From contig JAKBCS010000029.1 of the NCBI GenBank assembly GCA_021807595.1, forward strand, positions 1 to 44,741: a stretch of DNA of 44,741 nt, written 5' to 3'. Position numbers and translations under genes: made by a program. The notes below the pieces were generated by a model. The model was not told the DNA's origin, did not search any database, and saw only the letters and a program-made list of their open reading frames with translations. The DNA is from Planctomycetota bacterium (GTDB lineage Bacteria; Planctomycetota; Planctomycetia; Gemmatales; Gemmataceae). Positions 21,833 through 42,616 of this stretch are shown here, piece by piece; position 1 is the stretch's first letter, and each line of letters starts with the position of its first letter.

Positions 21833-21839
21833 CCGCCGA

Positions 21840-21887
21840 CTCGGAGCGCCAGCAAGGGAATCCCTTACTGGCGCTCCGAGCCGACAA
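21840..21887. repeat. 48-bp palindromic element, family A, copy 1
   Basis: A 41-bp palindrome (21840-21880; 19-bp arms around a 3-nt loop, one mismatch) is followed by CCGACAA. The same unit occurs at 41598-41645. The two copies share 39 of 48 bases by my count, and two stem positions differ by compensating changes (C-G to T-A and C-G to G-C). Here it lies between convergent stop codons and could serve both genes as a 3'-end hairpin. Confidence 0.85.
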
Positions 21888-34357: not shown

Positions 34358-34417
34358 CGTTTAGCCGCGACGCGCAGCGGAGTGCGAACGCGCTCCGCTG
34401 CGCGTCGCGGCTAAACG
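34358..34417. repeat. 60-bp palindrome, family B, copy 1
   Basis: Near-perfect palindrome: 29-bp arms with one mismatch and a 2-nt AA centre. The arm core is TTTAGCCGCGACGCGC. On the minus strand GTT TAG of the arm forms the last codon and the stop of the prenyltransferase-repeat gene (stop at 34413-34411). A related element is at 37497-37570. The outer third pair is T-A here and C-G there, a compensating change. Confidence 0.88.
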
Positions 34418-35355
34418 GAATGAAACAAGGCAAGAACGCCAAGTCCGTAGAACGTGTACTCTACATCGTGGCCATCATCCCACAAGCCGCCGTGAAAACC
34501 GCCCTCCGGGCGATCCAGCGACTCGGCGTAGCTCCGCACTTGCTCTGCATCCAAGCGCGACAAACCGCCGAGTTGTTCGAGCGTCCAAGCGGCGGTGAAC
34601 GTGGACAGCAGATCGCCCAGCGGAGCGCGACCGTTGGCGCGTAGTCCGCCCTCCGGCGAAGTCATGTCGGCGAGGAAGTCGATAACTCCTTCGCGCACTT
34701 CCTCCAGCGTTCCCGACATTTCCTCGGCGGCGATTTGCAGTAGACCAATGGCGGCGGCGGTCGGATTGGTGCCGCCGCGCCGCATCGGTGCGATTTCGAC
34801 GTAGCCGCCGTCCTCGCGCCTGCGCCCGGCCACGAAACGCACCACCTCGGCCAAGCGCGGCAGAGGCCGGCCCAGCAGTTGATAGCACAACGCTACCAAG
34901 AAAGTATGATAAGTGCTGCCCGACGCGCCGCCGATGGCCTTGGCGTAACCCCCATCGGCGGTATGGAAACTCTCCAGCATCGCGGCGACGCGCTCCGGCC
35001 AATCCGGCGGACTATCGGCAAGTACATCGGGACCGCCCGCCGCTTGCACCAACAGGCAGGCGTAGAGAAACGAGAAAAAATCGACTACACTCGTCTGTTG
35101 CGTCAAACTCGCGCGAAGAAAGCGTGCCGCCCCGTCGCCGACCTCCGCCGTCAGCGCATCAAGGACGGCGAGGCCGCGCAGCGCGAAGCCGGTGTAGTAC
35201 AGATCGGAGCCGCCCTCTCGGCCGGAGAAACCGCCATCGGCGTTTTGCCTCGCCCGCAAATAGGCGACGTGGCGCGCGCGCACTTCGTCCGGCAGCCGCG
35301 CCACACCCTCCGCCAGTCGAGCCGTCAAACGAGGTAAGTACGATTCGTCGATCAT
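34411..35355 (-). CDS. Prenyltransferase/squalene-cyclase-repeat protein (geranylgeranyl transferase beta-like)
   Basis: 314 aa made of alpha/alpha-barrel repeats of the protein-prenyltransferase beta-subunit and terpene-cyclase type: RQNADGGFSGREGG, FHTADGGYAKAIGG, RREDGGYVEI, TSPEGGLRANG and DRPEGGFHGG. About six repeats are spaced roughly 45-50 residues apart. The Zn-binding Asp/Cys/His set of true protein prenyltransferases is not evident, so enzymatic activity is doubtful. The start is ATG 35355, 2 nt after the upstream stop; a GTG at 35361 overlaps it. It is translationally coupled to the LRR gene. The stop codon is inside palindrome family B. Confidence 0.8.
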   Translation of the reverse strand: MIDESYLPRLTARLAEGVARLPDEVRARHVAYLRARQNADGGFSGREGGSDLYYTGFALRGLAVLDALTAEVGDGAARFLRASLTQQTSVVDFFSFLYACLLVQAAGGPDVLADSPPDWPERVAAMLESFHTADGGYAKAIGGASGSTYHTFLVALCYQLLGRPLPRLAEVVRFVAGRRREDGGYVEIAPMRRGGTNPTAAAIGLLQIAAEEMSGTLEEVREGVIDFLADMTSPEGGLRANGRAPLGDLLSTFTAAWTLEQLGGLSRLDAEQVRSYAESLDRPEGGFHGGLWDDGHDVEYTFYGLGVLALFHSV

Positions 35356-35357
35356 GC

Positions 35358-36074
35358 TCACGACTTCTTCTTGTCGTCTTTTTTCGGTTCGGGTTTCTTC
35401 TTGTCGTCTTTTTTCGGTTCGGGTTTCTTGTCTTCTTTCTTGGTTTCAGGTTTCTTCTTGTCTTCTTTCTTGGTTTCGGGCTTCTTCTCTTCCTTTTTCG
35501 GCTCCGGTTTGTCTTCGATACCGAGATTCACGTCCACACTCGGAATCGCCTTCTTCAGCTTCGCCGCGCCCGCCGGAGTGACTTTCGTGTCCCAGACGTA
35601 CAACTTTTTGAGCTTTTTCAGACCTTCGAGGTTTGCCAATCCGGCGTCGCCGATCGCCGTGCCGTACAGGTTCAAGTATTCGAGATTGATTAGCCCCTTG
35701 AGGTTCTCCAACCCCTTATCGGTGATTTTGGTTTTCTCCAGGTGCAAATGCGTCAATTCGGTCAACGGCTTGAGTTGAACGAGTTGCGTGTCCGTCACCG
35801 GCTGGCCTCGCAGGTTCAGATGCACGACGCCCTTGAGATCTTTGAGCAGGACGAGCGGTTCGTCGGTCCATTTGCCGTCGATCTGGAGGTACGACACCTC
35901 CAAATGCTTATCGTTCTGCGCCACTTCGAGGGCCAAGCCGCCCAGCTGGGCAATACGCGCTAGTGACTTCTTGCCCGCTTCGCTCTGTACGACCGGAGGC
36001 GGTGTCGGCGTATCCGCCGCGATCAAACCGACGGTCAAGCCGCACAACAATGCGATGGATGTCAACTTGTACAT
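35358..36074 (-). CDS. Secreted leucine-rich-repeat protein with Lys/Glu/Pro repeat tail
   Basis: 238 aa. A signal peptide (KLTSIALLCGLTVGLIAADT) is followed by five to six LRRs of about 24 residues (LKGVVHLNLRGQPVTDTQL, LTELTHLHLEKTKITDKGL, LINLEYLNLYGTAIGDAGL). The last 50 residues are a mixed-charge tail built from repeats of KPEPKKDDKK and KPETKKEDKK. LRRs imply protein binding. The tail could contact polyanions or the cell envelope, which is inference. The start is ATG 36074 with GGAG about 10 nt upstream; the frame open to 36113 does not carry a signal. It is divergent from the DNA polymerase gene. Confidence 0.82.
   Translation of the reverse strand: MYKLTSIALLCGLTVGLIAADTPTPPPVVQSEAGKKSLARIAQLGGLALEVAQNDKHLEVSYLQIDGKWTDEPLVLLKDLKGVVHLNLRGQPVTDTQLVQLKPLTELTHLHLEKTKITDKGLENLKGLINLEYLNLYGTAIGDAGLANLEGLKKLKKLYVWDTKVTPAGAAKLKKAIPSVDVNLGIEDKPEPKKEEKKPETKKEDKKKPETKKEDKKPEPKKDDKKKPEPKKDDKKKS
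35365..35508. repeat. Tandem 27-30 bp repeats coding for the Lys-rich tail
   Basis: Five in-frame units: two identical 30-bp units (35365-35394, 35395-35424), then units of 27, 30 and 27 bp (to 35508). All begin TTCTT and differ mainly by Asp/Glu and Glu/Thr codon changes. The identity of the first two suggests recent copy-number change by slippage. Confidence 0.88.
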
Positions 36075-37496: not shown

Positions 37497-37570
37497 CGCT
37501 TAACCGCGACGCGCCAGCAGAGCGCGTTGAAGAGCGCCAAGGCGCTCCGCTGGCGCGTCGCGGCTAAGCG
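37497..37570. repeat. 74-bp palindrome, family B, copy 2
   Basis: The arms (outer CGCTTA..., core CCGCGACGCGCCAGC) pair over about 29 bp with two mismatches around a partly paired centre. It lies 13 bp after the polymerase stop and ends right before the ATG at 37571 of the next gene. It may end or protect the polymerase mRNA and affect translation of the companion gene. Confidence 0.88.
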
Positions 37571-38201: not shown

Positions 38202-41200
38202 TCACTTTCCGCCCACGATTCGCACGCGCGCCGGGGAGCCGTTCTTGTCCTCCACTTCGCAGCGCAAGCCCCGTTCGCGTTCGTCGCGGTCCACCACGAG
38301 GGTCAGCGTATGGATGCCGACCGGCAGGTTTAGCTCCAACGATTCCTTGACCGCGATGGGTTCTCTGTCGATCCACAGTTTGACTCCCTTCGTCGAGTTG
38401 AGGCGGACGACGAACGGGCCGGAGGTGGTGACTTCGATGTGACAGCGGAGCAGTGAGACGGCGCGTTTGTCCTTGCCCAACGAGAACGAATAGGCGTCCG
38501 TCACCGGGAGTTCGCCGGATAAGGTGCTGTAGATCGAACCCCATTGGAGACCGCGTTCATCTTTGAAAGGAGTGGCCAAGCCGCCGCCCAGATGCAGGAA
38601 CGACCATGCCTCGCGCGTTGGCTCCAGGGCTTGCCAACTCCGGACGATGCGACGGGGACCGATAGCGTAGGGGCCGACTTTGCCCAATTCGGAGAGAAAT
38701 CGCACGAGATCAACCAGTTCGCCGCGCGTCAGCGTGTCGGTGAGGCCATCGGGCATCAGCGAACCGCCGGGAGATTTCTCGTCGATGTCTTTGGTTGGAA
38801 TGGCGATCTCTCGATCTTCCGCTCCGCGCAAGACCAATTCGGTTTTCGTCTCGCGGATTTTGATACCGGAGTATTGTTGTCCCTTTTTTGTGGTGACGAG
38901 TAGCGAGTGATAGTTTTCCTTGATGGCCTTATTCGGCTGCAAGAGTGAGTCGATGAGGTAATCGACGGGAGCGCTGGCACCGATGCTGCTGAGATCGGGA
39001 CCGACCTGACCGCCCGCGCCGCCGATGGCGTGGCATTTCAGGCACACTTGATCTTTGCGGCGGAAGACGAGTTCGCCGCGCGCCGGATCGCCGATCCGAG
39101 CCACGTCGGCAACCATCGCGTTCAGTTCCTTGGGTGACAGAGTCCGCACTCCAAACGTCAGACCGCCGGCCTTGGTCAACACCTCGACCAATCCGTGGTC
39201 GGGACGGCCGGTCGAACGCACGGTGCGCACGCCGATGCGGGCCACATCGGCGGGGATCTTCTGTTCGCGCAGTGCCGTTGCCAACAGAGCCGCTCCGCCT
39301 TTGCGTTGCAAGAATGCCTCGAAGACGCCGGTAGCCGCAAGCTCGTTGGGTAGTTTCGACAACACCGACGCGGCGCGGTGGGCGGCGGACTTGGCATCGA
39401 GCGGAACCAGGGCGATCAGCGCCAGAATCCGCCGCGACGAGGAATCGTCTCTATCGGCGAGTTTCTCCAATGCCTCGATGCTGGCCGATCCGCCGAGCGC
39501 TGCCAGGCCGTCGATGACCGCGCGGCGCAAGGCATCGCCGGTGTCGTCGGCGCGGGCCAATTCGAGCAATCGGGTCCGGGCCGCTTCCAACTTCCACAAT
39601 CCCGCAACGCGCGCGGCGGCGATCTGAAGACTCTCGCTATCCGTTTTTAACAGCGGGACAATGCGAGCGAGATCGCCGGCGGGACGGAGGTTGCGTTGGC
39701 GCATAGCTCGTTCCAGCGCTTCGAGCAATCGCGTCCGCTCCTCAACGGTCTGTTTCGGCGATACGACGCGCTCGAACAACAGCGCCAGTTCTTGGGGACC
39801 GCCCAGCGTAGCGATGAAGGCCAAAACGCCTACGGTGTTCGCGCCGGCTTTGCCGCTGCGCACCAATTCGATGAGTGGCTGCAAGACGGCGCGCGAATCC
39901 ACCGATTGGAGGGCGAACAGCAGTTGGCGCGCGTCGGGGACAACGAATTTACCCGCTTGCAAGGCGGGCAGCCAATAAGGCCCCAGCTCGCGCATCGTTA
40001 GCCACAAACTGTATTCGAGATATTTGTCTATCGGTTTAGTCAGCGATTTTAAGGCCAATTCGGCGGAGCGAACGTCGTGGATCTGCCCTAAGGCTCGCAC
40101 CGCCTCCAAGCGTACTTGCGGATGCTCGTCGTCGATGCGTGGCGTCAGCATTTGCAGCGGATCGGAGAGGCGTTCGTGCCAGGCCGAGACGACGCGCACG
40201 GCGGCGGCGCGAACGCGATAATCTTTCGCTTCCAGTAGCGACGCCAACAACTTCGGCTCGACGATATCGAGCGACTGATAGGTCCACAATGCTTCGAGAC
40301 GTAGCGTCTCCTCGTCGTGTTTTTCCGTCCACTCTTTCAATTCCGGCAGCGCTTTCTTGCCGCGCTCCTTGAGAACGCGGCGAGCGTGATGGCGCGTCCA
40401 ATCTTCGGGCGCATTGAGGGCTTCGAGCAGATCCGCCGTCCTGTCCTCAACCAGTTTCGGACGGGGCACGAGGGGTCGGCCCTTGGCGGTGATGCGCCAG
40501 ATGCGTCCGTGGCTGACATCGCGGCGCGGATCGCGGAAATCGACCTCTCCATGTTGGATGATCGGATTATACCAATCCGCGATGTAGATTGCGCCGTCCG
40601 GTCCCATCTTGACGTCCACGGGACGAAAGGCCGGGTGATTACTGCGGATCAGGTCGGCTTGCAAGGTGGCGGAGTAGTACGAGCCTTCTGGGGTCAGGGT
40701 GAAGCGACAGACGCGATGACCGCGGAAATCGTGGGTGAGGAGGCTGCCGCGCCACGCTTCCGGCAGATGGCGACCGCTGAGAATCTCGCAGCCGCAGTAT
40801 TTCGGATGACCGGGATTGAGACCTTGCAGTACGCGCGCCTCTCTCGGCGTGGCGGTATAGCTCGCCCCAACGATCACCGGGTTGACGCCTTCCGTGCCCG
40901 CCCCGTCGGTGACGAACGATTGACCCCAACGGTCGAAGTGATGCCCCCACGGATTCCACCAGCCGCGCGCAAACACTTCCAGCCGGCCCGTCTCCGGCCG
41001 AAGCTGCCACACACCGCCGCCGCCCAGCCGGCGCGGACCATACGGCGTTTCAATATGCGAGTGAATATAGATGGATTGATTGAAATATAAATTGCCGTCG
41101 TGGCCCCAGCGCAGGGTGTGGACGATATGATGCGTGTCCTCGGTGCCGAAGCCGGAGAGAACCACGCGGCGACGCAGCGGCCCCTTCTCGCCTTCGGGCC

Positions 41201-41675
41201 GCGACAAATGCAGCAGTTCCGTACTCGCGCCGACGTAGACGCCGCCGTCGCCCGGTTCGATACCCGTAGGGATGAGCAGCCCATTGGCGAACACCGTCGT
41301 TTTATCGGCCTTGCCGTCGCCGTCGGTGTCTTCCAGAACGATGATCTTGTCGTTGGCCTTTTGTCCGGGCTTGATCTGTGGATACGATTCGCTGCACGCC
41401 ACCCATAAGCGACCGGCGGAGTCGAAATTCATCTGAATCGGCTTGGCCAACAGCGGATCGGCAGCGAACAGATTGACCTCGAACCCGTCGGCCGCTTGCA
41501 GCGCCTTGCGCTCAATCTCCGGATCGGGATCGGGCACCTTGGCATCGCGCTGAGCGAAGACGCTGCTTTGGCAAGCGAGGAGAAGCACCACCACAAGCCC
41601 GCAGCGCCAGCAAGGGCGGCCCTTGTTGGCGCTGCGGGCCGACAAAAGGCCGTTTTGCATCATCATCTCGTTCAT
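38202..41675 (-). CDS. PVC-type heme-binding CxxCH protein with propeller and HEAT domains
   Basis: 1157 aa, exported. The order is: signal peptide (hydrophobic LVVVLLLACQSSVFA) interrupted upstream by an inserted palindrome; a six-bladed propeller-like membrane-bound dehydrogenase domain (FEVNLFAADPLLAKPIQMNFD, GRLWVACSESYP, GWWNPWGHHFDRWGQS, about 45-400); HEAT repeats (about 420-800); a cytochrome c domain with CLKCH (C877-H881) and PDLSSIGA; then a C-terminal beta domain of about 200 residues (PVTDAYSFSLGKDKRAV, LRCEVEDKNG). The family is widespread in planctomycetes and thought to oxidise sugars or polymers, though unproven. The start overlaps the SGNH-hydrolase stop as ATGA (41672-41675), giving an operon. 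Confidence 0.9.
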   Translation of the reverse strand: MNEMMMQNGLLSARSANKGRPCWRCGLVVVLLLACQSSVFAQRDAKVPDPDPEIERKALQAADGFEVNLFAADPLLAKPIQMNFDSAGRLWVACSESYPQIKPGQKANDKIIVLEDTDGDGKADKTTVFANGLLIPTGIEPGDGGVYVGASTELLHLSRPEGEKGPLRRRVVLSGFGTEDTHHIVHTLRWGHDGNLYFNQSIYIHSHIETPYGPRRLGGGGVWQLRPETGRLEVFARGWWNPWGHHFDRWGQSFVTDGAGTEGVNPVIVGASYTATPREARVLQGLNPGHPKYCGCEILSGRHLPEAWRGSLLTHDFRGHRVCRFTLTPEGSYYSATLQADLIRSNHPAFRPVDVKMGPDGAIYIADWYNPIIQHGEVDFRDPRRDVSHGRIWRITAKGRPLVPRPKLVEDRTADLLEALNAPEDWTRHHARRVLKERGKKALPELKEWTEKHDEETLRLEALWTYQSLDIVEPKLLASLLEAKDYRVRAAAVRVVSAWHERLSDPLQMLTPRIDDEHPQVRLEAVRALGQIHDVRSAELALKSLTKPIDKYLEYSLWLTMRELGPYWLPALQAGKFVVPDARQLLFALQSVDSRAVLQPLIELVRSGKAGANTVGVLAFIATLGGPQELALLFERVVSPKQTVEERTRLLEALERAMRQRNLRPAGDLARIVPLLKTDSESLQIAAARVAGLWKLEAARTRLLELARADDTGDALRRAVIDGLAALGGSASIEALEKLADRDDSSSRRILALIALVPLDAKSAAHRAASVLSKLPNELAATGVFEAFLQRKGGAALLATALREQKIPADVARIGVRTVRSTGRPDHGLVEVLTKAGGLTFGVRTLSPKELNAMVADVARIGDPARGELVFRRKDQVCLKCHAIGGAGGQVGPDLSSIGASAPVDYLIDSLLQPNKAIKENYHSLLVTTKKGQQYSGIKIRETKTELVLRGAEDREIAIPTKDIDEKSPGGSLMPDGLTDTLTRGELVDLVRFLSELGKVGPYAIGPRRIVRSWQALEPTREAWSFLHLGGGLATPFKDERGLQWGSIYSTLSGELPVTDAYSFSLGKDKRAVSLLRCHIEVTTSGPFVVRLNSTKGVKLWIDREPIAVKESLELNLPVGIHTLTLVVDRDERERGLRCEVEDKNGSPARVRIVGGK
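41598..41645. repeat. 48-bp palindromic element, family A, copy 2, inside a coding sequence
   Basis: 41-bp palindrome (41598-41638; 19-bp arms, one mismatch, 3-nt loop) plus CCGACAA. On the minus strand it is exactly 16 codons, LSARSANKGRPCWRCG, in frame and without a stop. It separates the n-region (MNEMMMQNGL) from the hydrophobic core of the signal peptide of the 38202-41675 gene. The partner copy is at 21840-21887 in non-coding DNA. Confidence 0.9.
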
Positions 41676-42616
41676 GGCTTCTTCTCCGCTTTCGGTTGAT
41701 TGAGGCGAGCCGCGGCAACACGCAGCTTGGCAATCTCTATTTCCTTGTCGGCGACCAACGGATCGAACTGCGGAATCTCGCGAGCGTTCTGCCCCTGTTC
41801 GTGTTTGCGGAAACCGAACAGATAGGTTTCGTTTTCCGGACGCCAGCGGTAGAAATAGAGACGATTCTTGGCGACGATGGTTTGTCGGAGTTTTTCGATC
41901 CTTTTGTTGTCTCCTATCGCGCCGAAGTCTGAGGCATGAGGGCAGCCCAACGCTTTTTGCAAAACCAGAGCCGACCGCATGTATCCGTCGGAAGTCAGAT
42001 GAATGCCGTTATCGGTCAGGGGCTTCTTTTCTCGACCCAAGAGATCGTATAAATCGACGAAACGATGCCCGCGTTTCTCCGCCACCTCTCCAATCGCATC
42101 GGCGTACAAACGCAGGTTCTTGTTATTCTCCGCCGGATCGGGCAGCGGGAGACCGAGGTCTTCTTGCTTGAGCGGTGACAGCAGGACGATGCGAGCCTTC
42201 AGCGGAGCGAACGTATCCAAGAGTGTTTCGAGTCCCTTGACGAAACGCGGCAAGCCCTTCGCTCCCTCGAACGATTCATTTGTGCCGTAGCCAATGAAAA
42301 TCACGGTCGGCTTGAGCGCGAGAACGTGATCTTTCAGTTGGCGGAAACCGTCGACCTGCGTGCCGAAACCGGCGCGGGCATCGCCGAATACGGTGTCGCC
42401 ACTCCAGCCGAGATTGCGAAAGATGATGGACTTATCGGGATAGCTAAGCGTCAGCGCCGTCTCCCAGTAGCCATAACGCTGCTCGCGTTCGATCAGCGTG
42501 CTGCCGACGAGAACGACGCGGTCGTCGTCGCGGAGGGCGAATGGCTCCGCCGCGCCGGCCATCGAAACCACGATTAAACCAAGAGGAAGTGACGGAAGGA
42601 GTGCATACGATTTCAC
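41672..42616 (-). CDS. SGNH/GDSL-type hydrolase, exported
   Basis: 314 aa. A signal peptide (LLPSLPLGLIVVSMAGAA) precedes an SGNH fold: block I VVLVGSTLIEREQRYGYWE (GST where the classical motif is GDS), IIFRNLGWSGDTV, block III FIGYGTNESFEG (the Asn), and block V DNGIHLTSDGY with the Asp-x-x-His pair. The Ser of GST is the likely nucleophile. An acyl-, carbohydrate- or polymer-esterase is expected; the substrate is unknown. The start codon is GTG (42616), with GGAG 10 nt upstream. The last 4 nt overlap the downstream cytochrome-domain gene, suggesting joint action on one extracellular substrate. Confidence 0.86.
   Translation of the reverse strand: MKSYALLPSLPLGLIVVSMAGAAEPFALRDDDRVVLVGSTLIEREQRYGYWETALTLSYPDKSIIFRNLGWSGDTVFGDARAGFGTQVDGFRQLKDHVLALKPTVIFIGYGTNESFEGAKGLPRFVKGLETLLDTFAPLKARIVLLSPLKQEDLGLPLPDPAENNKNLRLYADAIGEVAEKRGHRFVDLYDLLGREKKPLTDNGIHLTSDGYMRSALVLQKALGCPHASDFGAIGDNKRIEKLRQTIVAKNRLYFYRWRPENETYLFGFRKHEQGQNAREIPQFDPLVADKEIEIAKLRVAAARLNQPKAEKKP

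Follow-up and report, generated by a model that had tools for sequence, protein, structure and literature searches.

An in-frame REP-type palindrome close to the start of a planctomycete heme-binding protein gene, probably at its family's usual position just past a stop codon

Rickettsia palindromic elements (RPEs) are palindromic repeats, often in frame, that are translated inside functional genes. In E. coli, intercistronic REPs, for example those of malE-malF, place a strong hairpin right past the upstream stop codon of a co-directional gene pair. REPs associated with RAYTs, of the GTAG type, are short, high-copy palindromes, mostly near gene 3' ends, between convergent or co-directional ORFs (PMC3733652). 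The same paper lists REPs inside genes, DNA polymerase I among them, finds intragenic GTAG repeats to be most abundant in O. terrae (Verrucomicrobia, PVC), and cautions that annotation errors may account for most of the intragenic REPs at N-termini, which would really be extragenic. The event described here is unusual but recognised, in that in-frame or intragenic REPs are already known (the RPEs, DNA polymerase I, O. terrae). Less usual are an explanation based on the element's address and the replacement of one palindrome family by another at the same coding sites, the replacement resting on two sites. Our literature search found no planctomycete study of the repeats in question, which we call family A.

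The window is the whole stretch of 44,741 nucleotides that was analysed (contig JAKBCS010000029.1 of the Planctomycetota assembly GCA_021807595.1). An earlier note on this DNA had pointed to an in-frame hairpin in the N-terminal part of a large cytochrome-domain gene, and direct translation agrees, with LSARSANKGRPCWRCG as codons 11-26 of an ORF of 1157 amino acids. The genes and the element are as follows.

41672 to 42616, minus strand: SGNH/GDSL-type hydrolase gene lying upstream, with 28 nt between its stop and the REP copy
38202 to 41675, minus strand: host gene, PVC-type heme-binding CxxCH protein (TIGR02604 N-terminal domain, TIGR02603 heme-binding domain, HEAT repeats, Pfam DUF7133)
41593 to 41643, minus strand: family-A REP copy, full model length of 51 nt
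41597 to 41639, minus strand: REP hairpin, a near-perfect palindrome with arms 41620-41639 and 41597-41616 (20 nt each) and a loop of 3 nt
41598 to 41645, minus strand: the 16 codons named by the earlier note, LSARSANKGRPCWRCG

On the minus strand, the codons of 41598-41645 are TTG TCG GCC CGC AGC GCC AAC AAG GGC CGC CCT TGC TGG CGC TGC GGG. The 48 bp with exactly 16 codons are not the natural unit, however; by the family-wide model, this is the 51 nt of 41593-41643. Read from the sequence, the palindrome 41597-41639 is open in all six frames. As RNA, the hairpin folds at -46.8 kcal/mol (z -4.2 relative to 200 shuffled sequences), and its matches to known RNA families in Rfam all fell far below the gathering scores and were driven by the hairpin alone. 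We do not claim a target-site duplication. Although TTGT stands on both sides (TTGT-CGGCCC...GCGGGC-TTGT), removal of a 49-nt unit would produce a frameshift, and the outer bases of the element are not conserved; the TTGTCGG end shared by the window copies is not conserved among other family-A copies.

We examined the repeat in the genome of the window (G000, Gemmataceae-like and about 95% complete) and in three sister species of the same genus (G001, G002 and G003). The family-A consensus is about ACCAGCCCGnAGCGCnAGC...GCTnGCGCTnCGGGCTGGT, with copy lengths of about 42 to 76 nt owing to a variable loop. Counting with an 18-nt arm pattern and 3 mismatches did no better than a control (126/150 vs 135/149). 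Consequently, a covariance model was built from 19 copies aligned across the four genomes (57 positions, 23 pairs), on which the window copy, itself among the 19 training sequences, scores 58.5 bits (model R1, E 1.5e-14). Among the best 150 candidates scored per genome, the search gave at least 128 two-strand matches in G000 and at least 145 in G003. Because a palindrome matches on both strands, this corresponds to at least roughly 60-70 places in each. A two-arm pattern independent of the model returned 15, 14, 17 and 39 matches in the four genomes, against 4, 0, 0 and 4 for its control. Family A in G000 is a short palindrome repeated many times, which bears out the idea of a genome-wide palindromic repeat.

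Placement was assessed in 1.19 Mb of G000 sequence (the window and 60 further stretches) plus targeted stretches. Most of these lie on contigs that already showed hairpin matches, and copy density there is biased; ORFs came from a purpose-written codon-usage script, a non-standard gene finder. The 52 distinct copies classified in G000 comprise 48 intergenic copies, three that overlap a gene by at most 11 nt and one, the window copy, inside a CDS, in sampled sequence of which 85% is coding. The comparison of coding with non-coding copies that the earlier note proposed thus places the window copy inside a gene, but as the only such one among the 52. For 39 of the other 51, a gene 3' end is no more than 60 nt away, vs 20% of random intergenic placements (p ~4e-18), and the median distance after a stop codon is 14 nt. 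The family is extragenic near gene 3' ends; the window copy lies in the next ORF, separated by 28 nt from the SGNH hydrolase stop codon. The related copy said to sit in non-coding DNA near 21840 is real, aligning over 46 nt at 83% identity and located between gene ends.

21835 to 21885, no strand assigned: the window's other family-A REP copy, intergenic, with the closest gene 3' end 2 nt away

The relation of family A to transposases was seen in the sister species. A RAYT-like gene of G003 (L224:1342-1818), with a Y1_Tnp match just above the Pfam cut-off, is preceded by widely spaced family-A arms and followed, 1 nt on, by a full family-A hairpin. A G002 gene 79% identical to it has related hairpins on both sides (L221), and a further RAYT-like gene of G002 (L219) lies between near-identical family-C hairpins (1252-1321 and 2103-2168, with arms of 32-34 bp). 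Family A resembles the GTAG-type REPs of PMC3733652 in its high copy number, its address at gene 3' ends, its occasional in-frame copies and the presence of related hairpins around RAYT-like genes in sister species. It differs in its stems of about 20 bp, vs 5-13 bp, and in the tag: inspection by eye of the flanks of the 52 copies found neither tetranucleotide, GTAG or CGTC, conserved at the foot, and GGAG adjoins the RAYT-flanking copies in L224. As the GTAG tag was not seen, we use the name REP-type only and file family A outside the GTAG superfamily. A further difference is that the search of G000 turned up no L224-type RAYT gene, so that the case for mobilisation is argued from relatives; family A is probably mobilised, now or once, by RAYT-like HUH transposases.

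Like an RPE, the window copy is palindromic and lies in frame inside a gene, where 41598-41645 is open and its translation is predicted from sequence. Unlike RPEs, which are often in frame, family A is coding in 1 of 52 copies; its sequence differs, the host is unrelated and no membership is claimed. With the malE-malF REPs the window copy shares a post-stop hairpin in a co-directional pair, whereas here the downstream ORF starts 5' of the hairpin, which makes the element coding. The account of RPEs given here draws partly on works cited in PMC3733652.

Our preferred reading, to which we assign a probability of about 70%, is that a family-A REP lies at its usual post-stop address, has become coding through overlapping cistrons and makes up most of a Sec n-region. 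A REP-type palindrome mobilised by a RAYT would normally settle just 3' of stop codons, and the window copy would have taken this usual place, 28 nt past the stop of the SGNH hydrolase. Since the next gene of the operon would begin at an ATGA that overlaps the upstream stop, the REP would be read as protein, and its residues would form most of the n-region of the host gene's Sec signal peptide. It would be tolerated because n-regions are variable and cleaved, the palindrome is free of stops in all frames and its Arg and Lys codons supply positive charge. The element probably did not come in as a random insertion that split a signal peptide, given that it lies at the family's usual address, even if any single copy may have reached its place by another route. 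Such a history would offer a concrete route from extragenic repeat to protein, in which the normal post-stop address is kept and overlapping cistrons make that address coding. It also means that N-terminal REPs need start-codon checks.

Three further features bear on the choice of start codon.

41672 to 41675, minus strand: ATGA overlap, the host-gene start on the SGNH hydrolase stop codon, kept in 4/4 genus genomes
41684 to 41687, minus strand: Shine-Dalgarno-like GGAG, 8 nt 5' of ATG 41675
41571 to 41597, minus strand: signal-peptide hydrophobic core LVVVLLLAC, followed by the likely cut site AQRD, A|Q near 41553/41552

Codon scoring with a codon-usage gene caller places the host-gene start at ATG 41675. 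In this genome, in-frame ATGs before the hydrophobic core occur only 5' of the REP, with none between hairpin and core. The Shine-Dalgarno-like site is GGAG in G003 as well, and AGAGAAG in G001 and G002. Starting from ATG 41675, the n-region would have a net charge of +3, with every basic residue coming from REP codons, in keeping with the basic residues that had been remarked on in the element; minus the 16 codons it would be acidic. This charge is the one hint that the element may have been domesticated as protein, as the earlier note held. Translation through the REP copy is likely, because ATGs lie only upstream, the ATGA is conserved, a GGAG precedes it and the basic charge of the n-region comes entirely from the REP. 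The proposed position of the element between n- and h-region hinges on which start codon is used: from the likely ATG 41675, the element would be most of the n-region rather than a split within it.

The alternative that survives best, although we consider it unlikely, is that the N-terminus is mis-called. The start would then be a GTG after the hairpin (41592-41594 or one of the next two), and the REP would be a usual intercistronic element at the RNA level, which might for instance stabilise the upstream cistron's 3' end or damp read-through. The window REP does sit at the family's usual intercistronic place, and PMC3733652 warns that most N-terminal coding REPs may be extragenic via misannotation. 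G001, where a second in-frame ATG 80 nt past the SGNH stop leads to an ordinary signal peptide, points the same way, as do the many outgroups in which the host gene begins after a gap of 20-330 nt behind the upstream gene. However, the GTGs past the hairpin have no Shine-Dalgarno-like sequence, the first of them would yield a peptide of 14 residues with no basic n-region, and G000 has no ATG between hairpin and core. In addition, the ATGA is kept and the frame from it to the core is open in 4/4 genus members despite different inserts; with length differences of 0, 39 and 78 nt among the four genomes, this preservation rests on two length changes.

The inserts themselves show how the site differs between sister species. 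The G003 ortholog, 92% identical in the best segment, has an N-terminus reading MNEPSNLSFPRSAWERNSGRSASCTTRAAERRNVRSHAERGNEVGPRWRCGLAVAALLF. There, an unrelated 112-nt palindromic repeat, family B (CGTTCCCACGC..., L062 / L105, G003:C202:2740-2851), lies in frame at the place of the 5' arm and is followed by the same 3' arm, CCTCGCTGGCGCTGCGGGC. This repeat has about 90 two-strand matches each in G000 and G003, and its copies in the 1.19 Mb sampled from G000 are intergenic in 11/11 cases. The G002 ortholog reads MSHRPDLSLAVRRPSQGRDGPCLHYGLVIGF and has a decayed 3' arm that keeps 16/21 bases (0/20,000 shuffles were as good) and an unrecognisable 5' arm (7/21 bases), so REP homology in G002 rests on the 3' arm. 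G001 has neither arm. The residue sequence of the element is kept in neither G002 nor G003, and the family-A palindrome is lost in both. The two extra Cys that the earlier note stressed are present in LSARSANKGRPCWRCG but not conserved, the sister species reading PRWRCG and PCLHYG, and a functional CxxC (PCWRC) was rejected for this reason. The suggested check of orthologues for an uninterrupted signal peptide found that distant ones generally have short peptides of this kind. Many have an ATG near the hydrophobic core, and in some the open frame continues 5' of it, which makes the extent of the N-terminus uncertain there. The simplest history, which is not proven, would place the REP in an ancestor within the genus, with decay in G002, half replacement in G003 and retention or renewal in G000.

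These comparisons weigh on the earlier note's own reading, in which a REP entered a signal peptide that was already there and came under selection as a device controlling export or initiation. Minus the 48 nt, the conserved KPIQ motif would lie 179 nt past the SGNH stop, which equals the spacing in the ATGA-started outgroups L137 and L179, and the hairpin is well preserved in G000. Selection for such a device is nevertheless improbable when neither residues nor palindrome persist in G002 and G003. The n-region would be acidic once the 16 codons are removed, which makes the uninterrupted form no obvious ancestor. As the stem begins at about +37 from ATG 41675, beyond the usual initiation footprint, an effect of the hairpin on translation initiation is no more than possible. 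Least probable is an intrinsic terminator or attenuator between both cistrons, for although the stem is very strong and the family prefers gene 3' ends, a T tract after the stem is absent and a terminator scan gave no match at the hairpin.

A second coding site in the genus holds palindromes as well. In DNA polymerase I, within the linker that precedes the 3'-5' exonuclease domain, G003 has an in-frame family-A hairpin (L273:2998-3053), G000 a related family-A palindrome, partly eroded and in frame (L348), and G002 an in-frame family-C palindrome (L349). The n-region site likewise holds family A in G000, family B in G003 and a decayed family-A remnant in G002. Tentatively, and with some doubt, a few permissive coding sites such as the n-region and the polA linker may be landing sites where palindrome families swap in frame between sisters. 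If this were true, REP turnover would repeatedly supply new protein sequence, and family-for-family exchange at shared coding sites would be a testable system of mobile palindromes feeding variable protein segments.

Other coding palindromes were met in the same genome. A family-C copy (TAGCCGCGACGCGC) lies in frame in a PSCyt1/PSCyt2/PSD1 protein of G000 (L312:11162-11215), with a similar stretch in the G003 ortholog. A near-perfect palindrome of 101 nt with 49-bp arms, of the CCCTCACCCC family, is in frame in a protein of 1177 amino acids (L333:3342-3442, G000); a similar insert is present in the 91% identical G003 protein and absent from the best G001 and G002 matches, which are just 35-36% identical. 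Judged from the polA, PSCyt1/PSD1 and 1177-aa protein cases, rare in-frame palindrome copies are a general feature of the genus. In G000, an ORF of 678 amino acids includes a CCCTCACCC-family palindrome (L321:1206-1257) in its reading frame, where it reads TLPPLTPRGGEGRVRGGS. Within the window, two long hairpins of the family-C type, with arms of 29 and 26 bp, lie at gene edges (34358-34417 and 37504-37563). A tandem array of 27-30-nt units at 35338-35508, with start spacings of 30, 30, 27 and 27, falls mostly inside a predicted gene on the minus strand (35358-36074).
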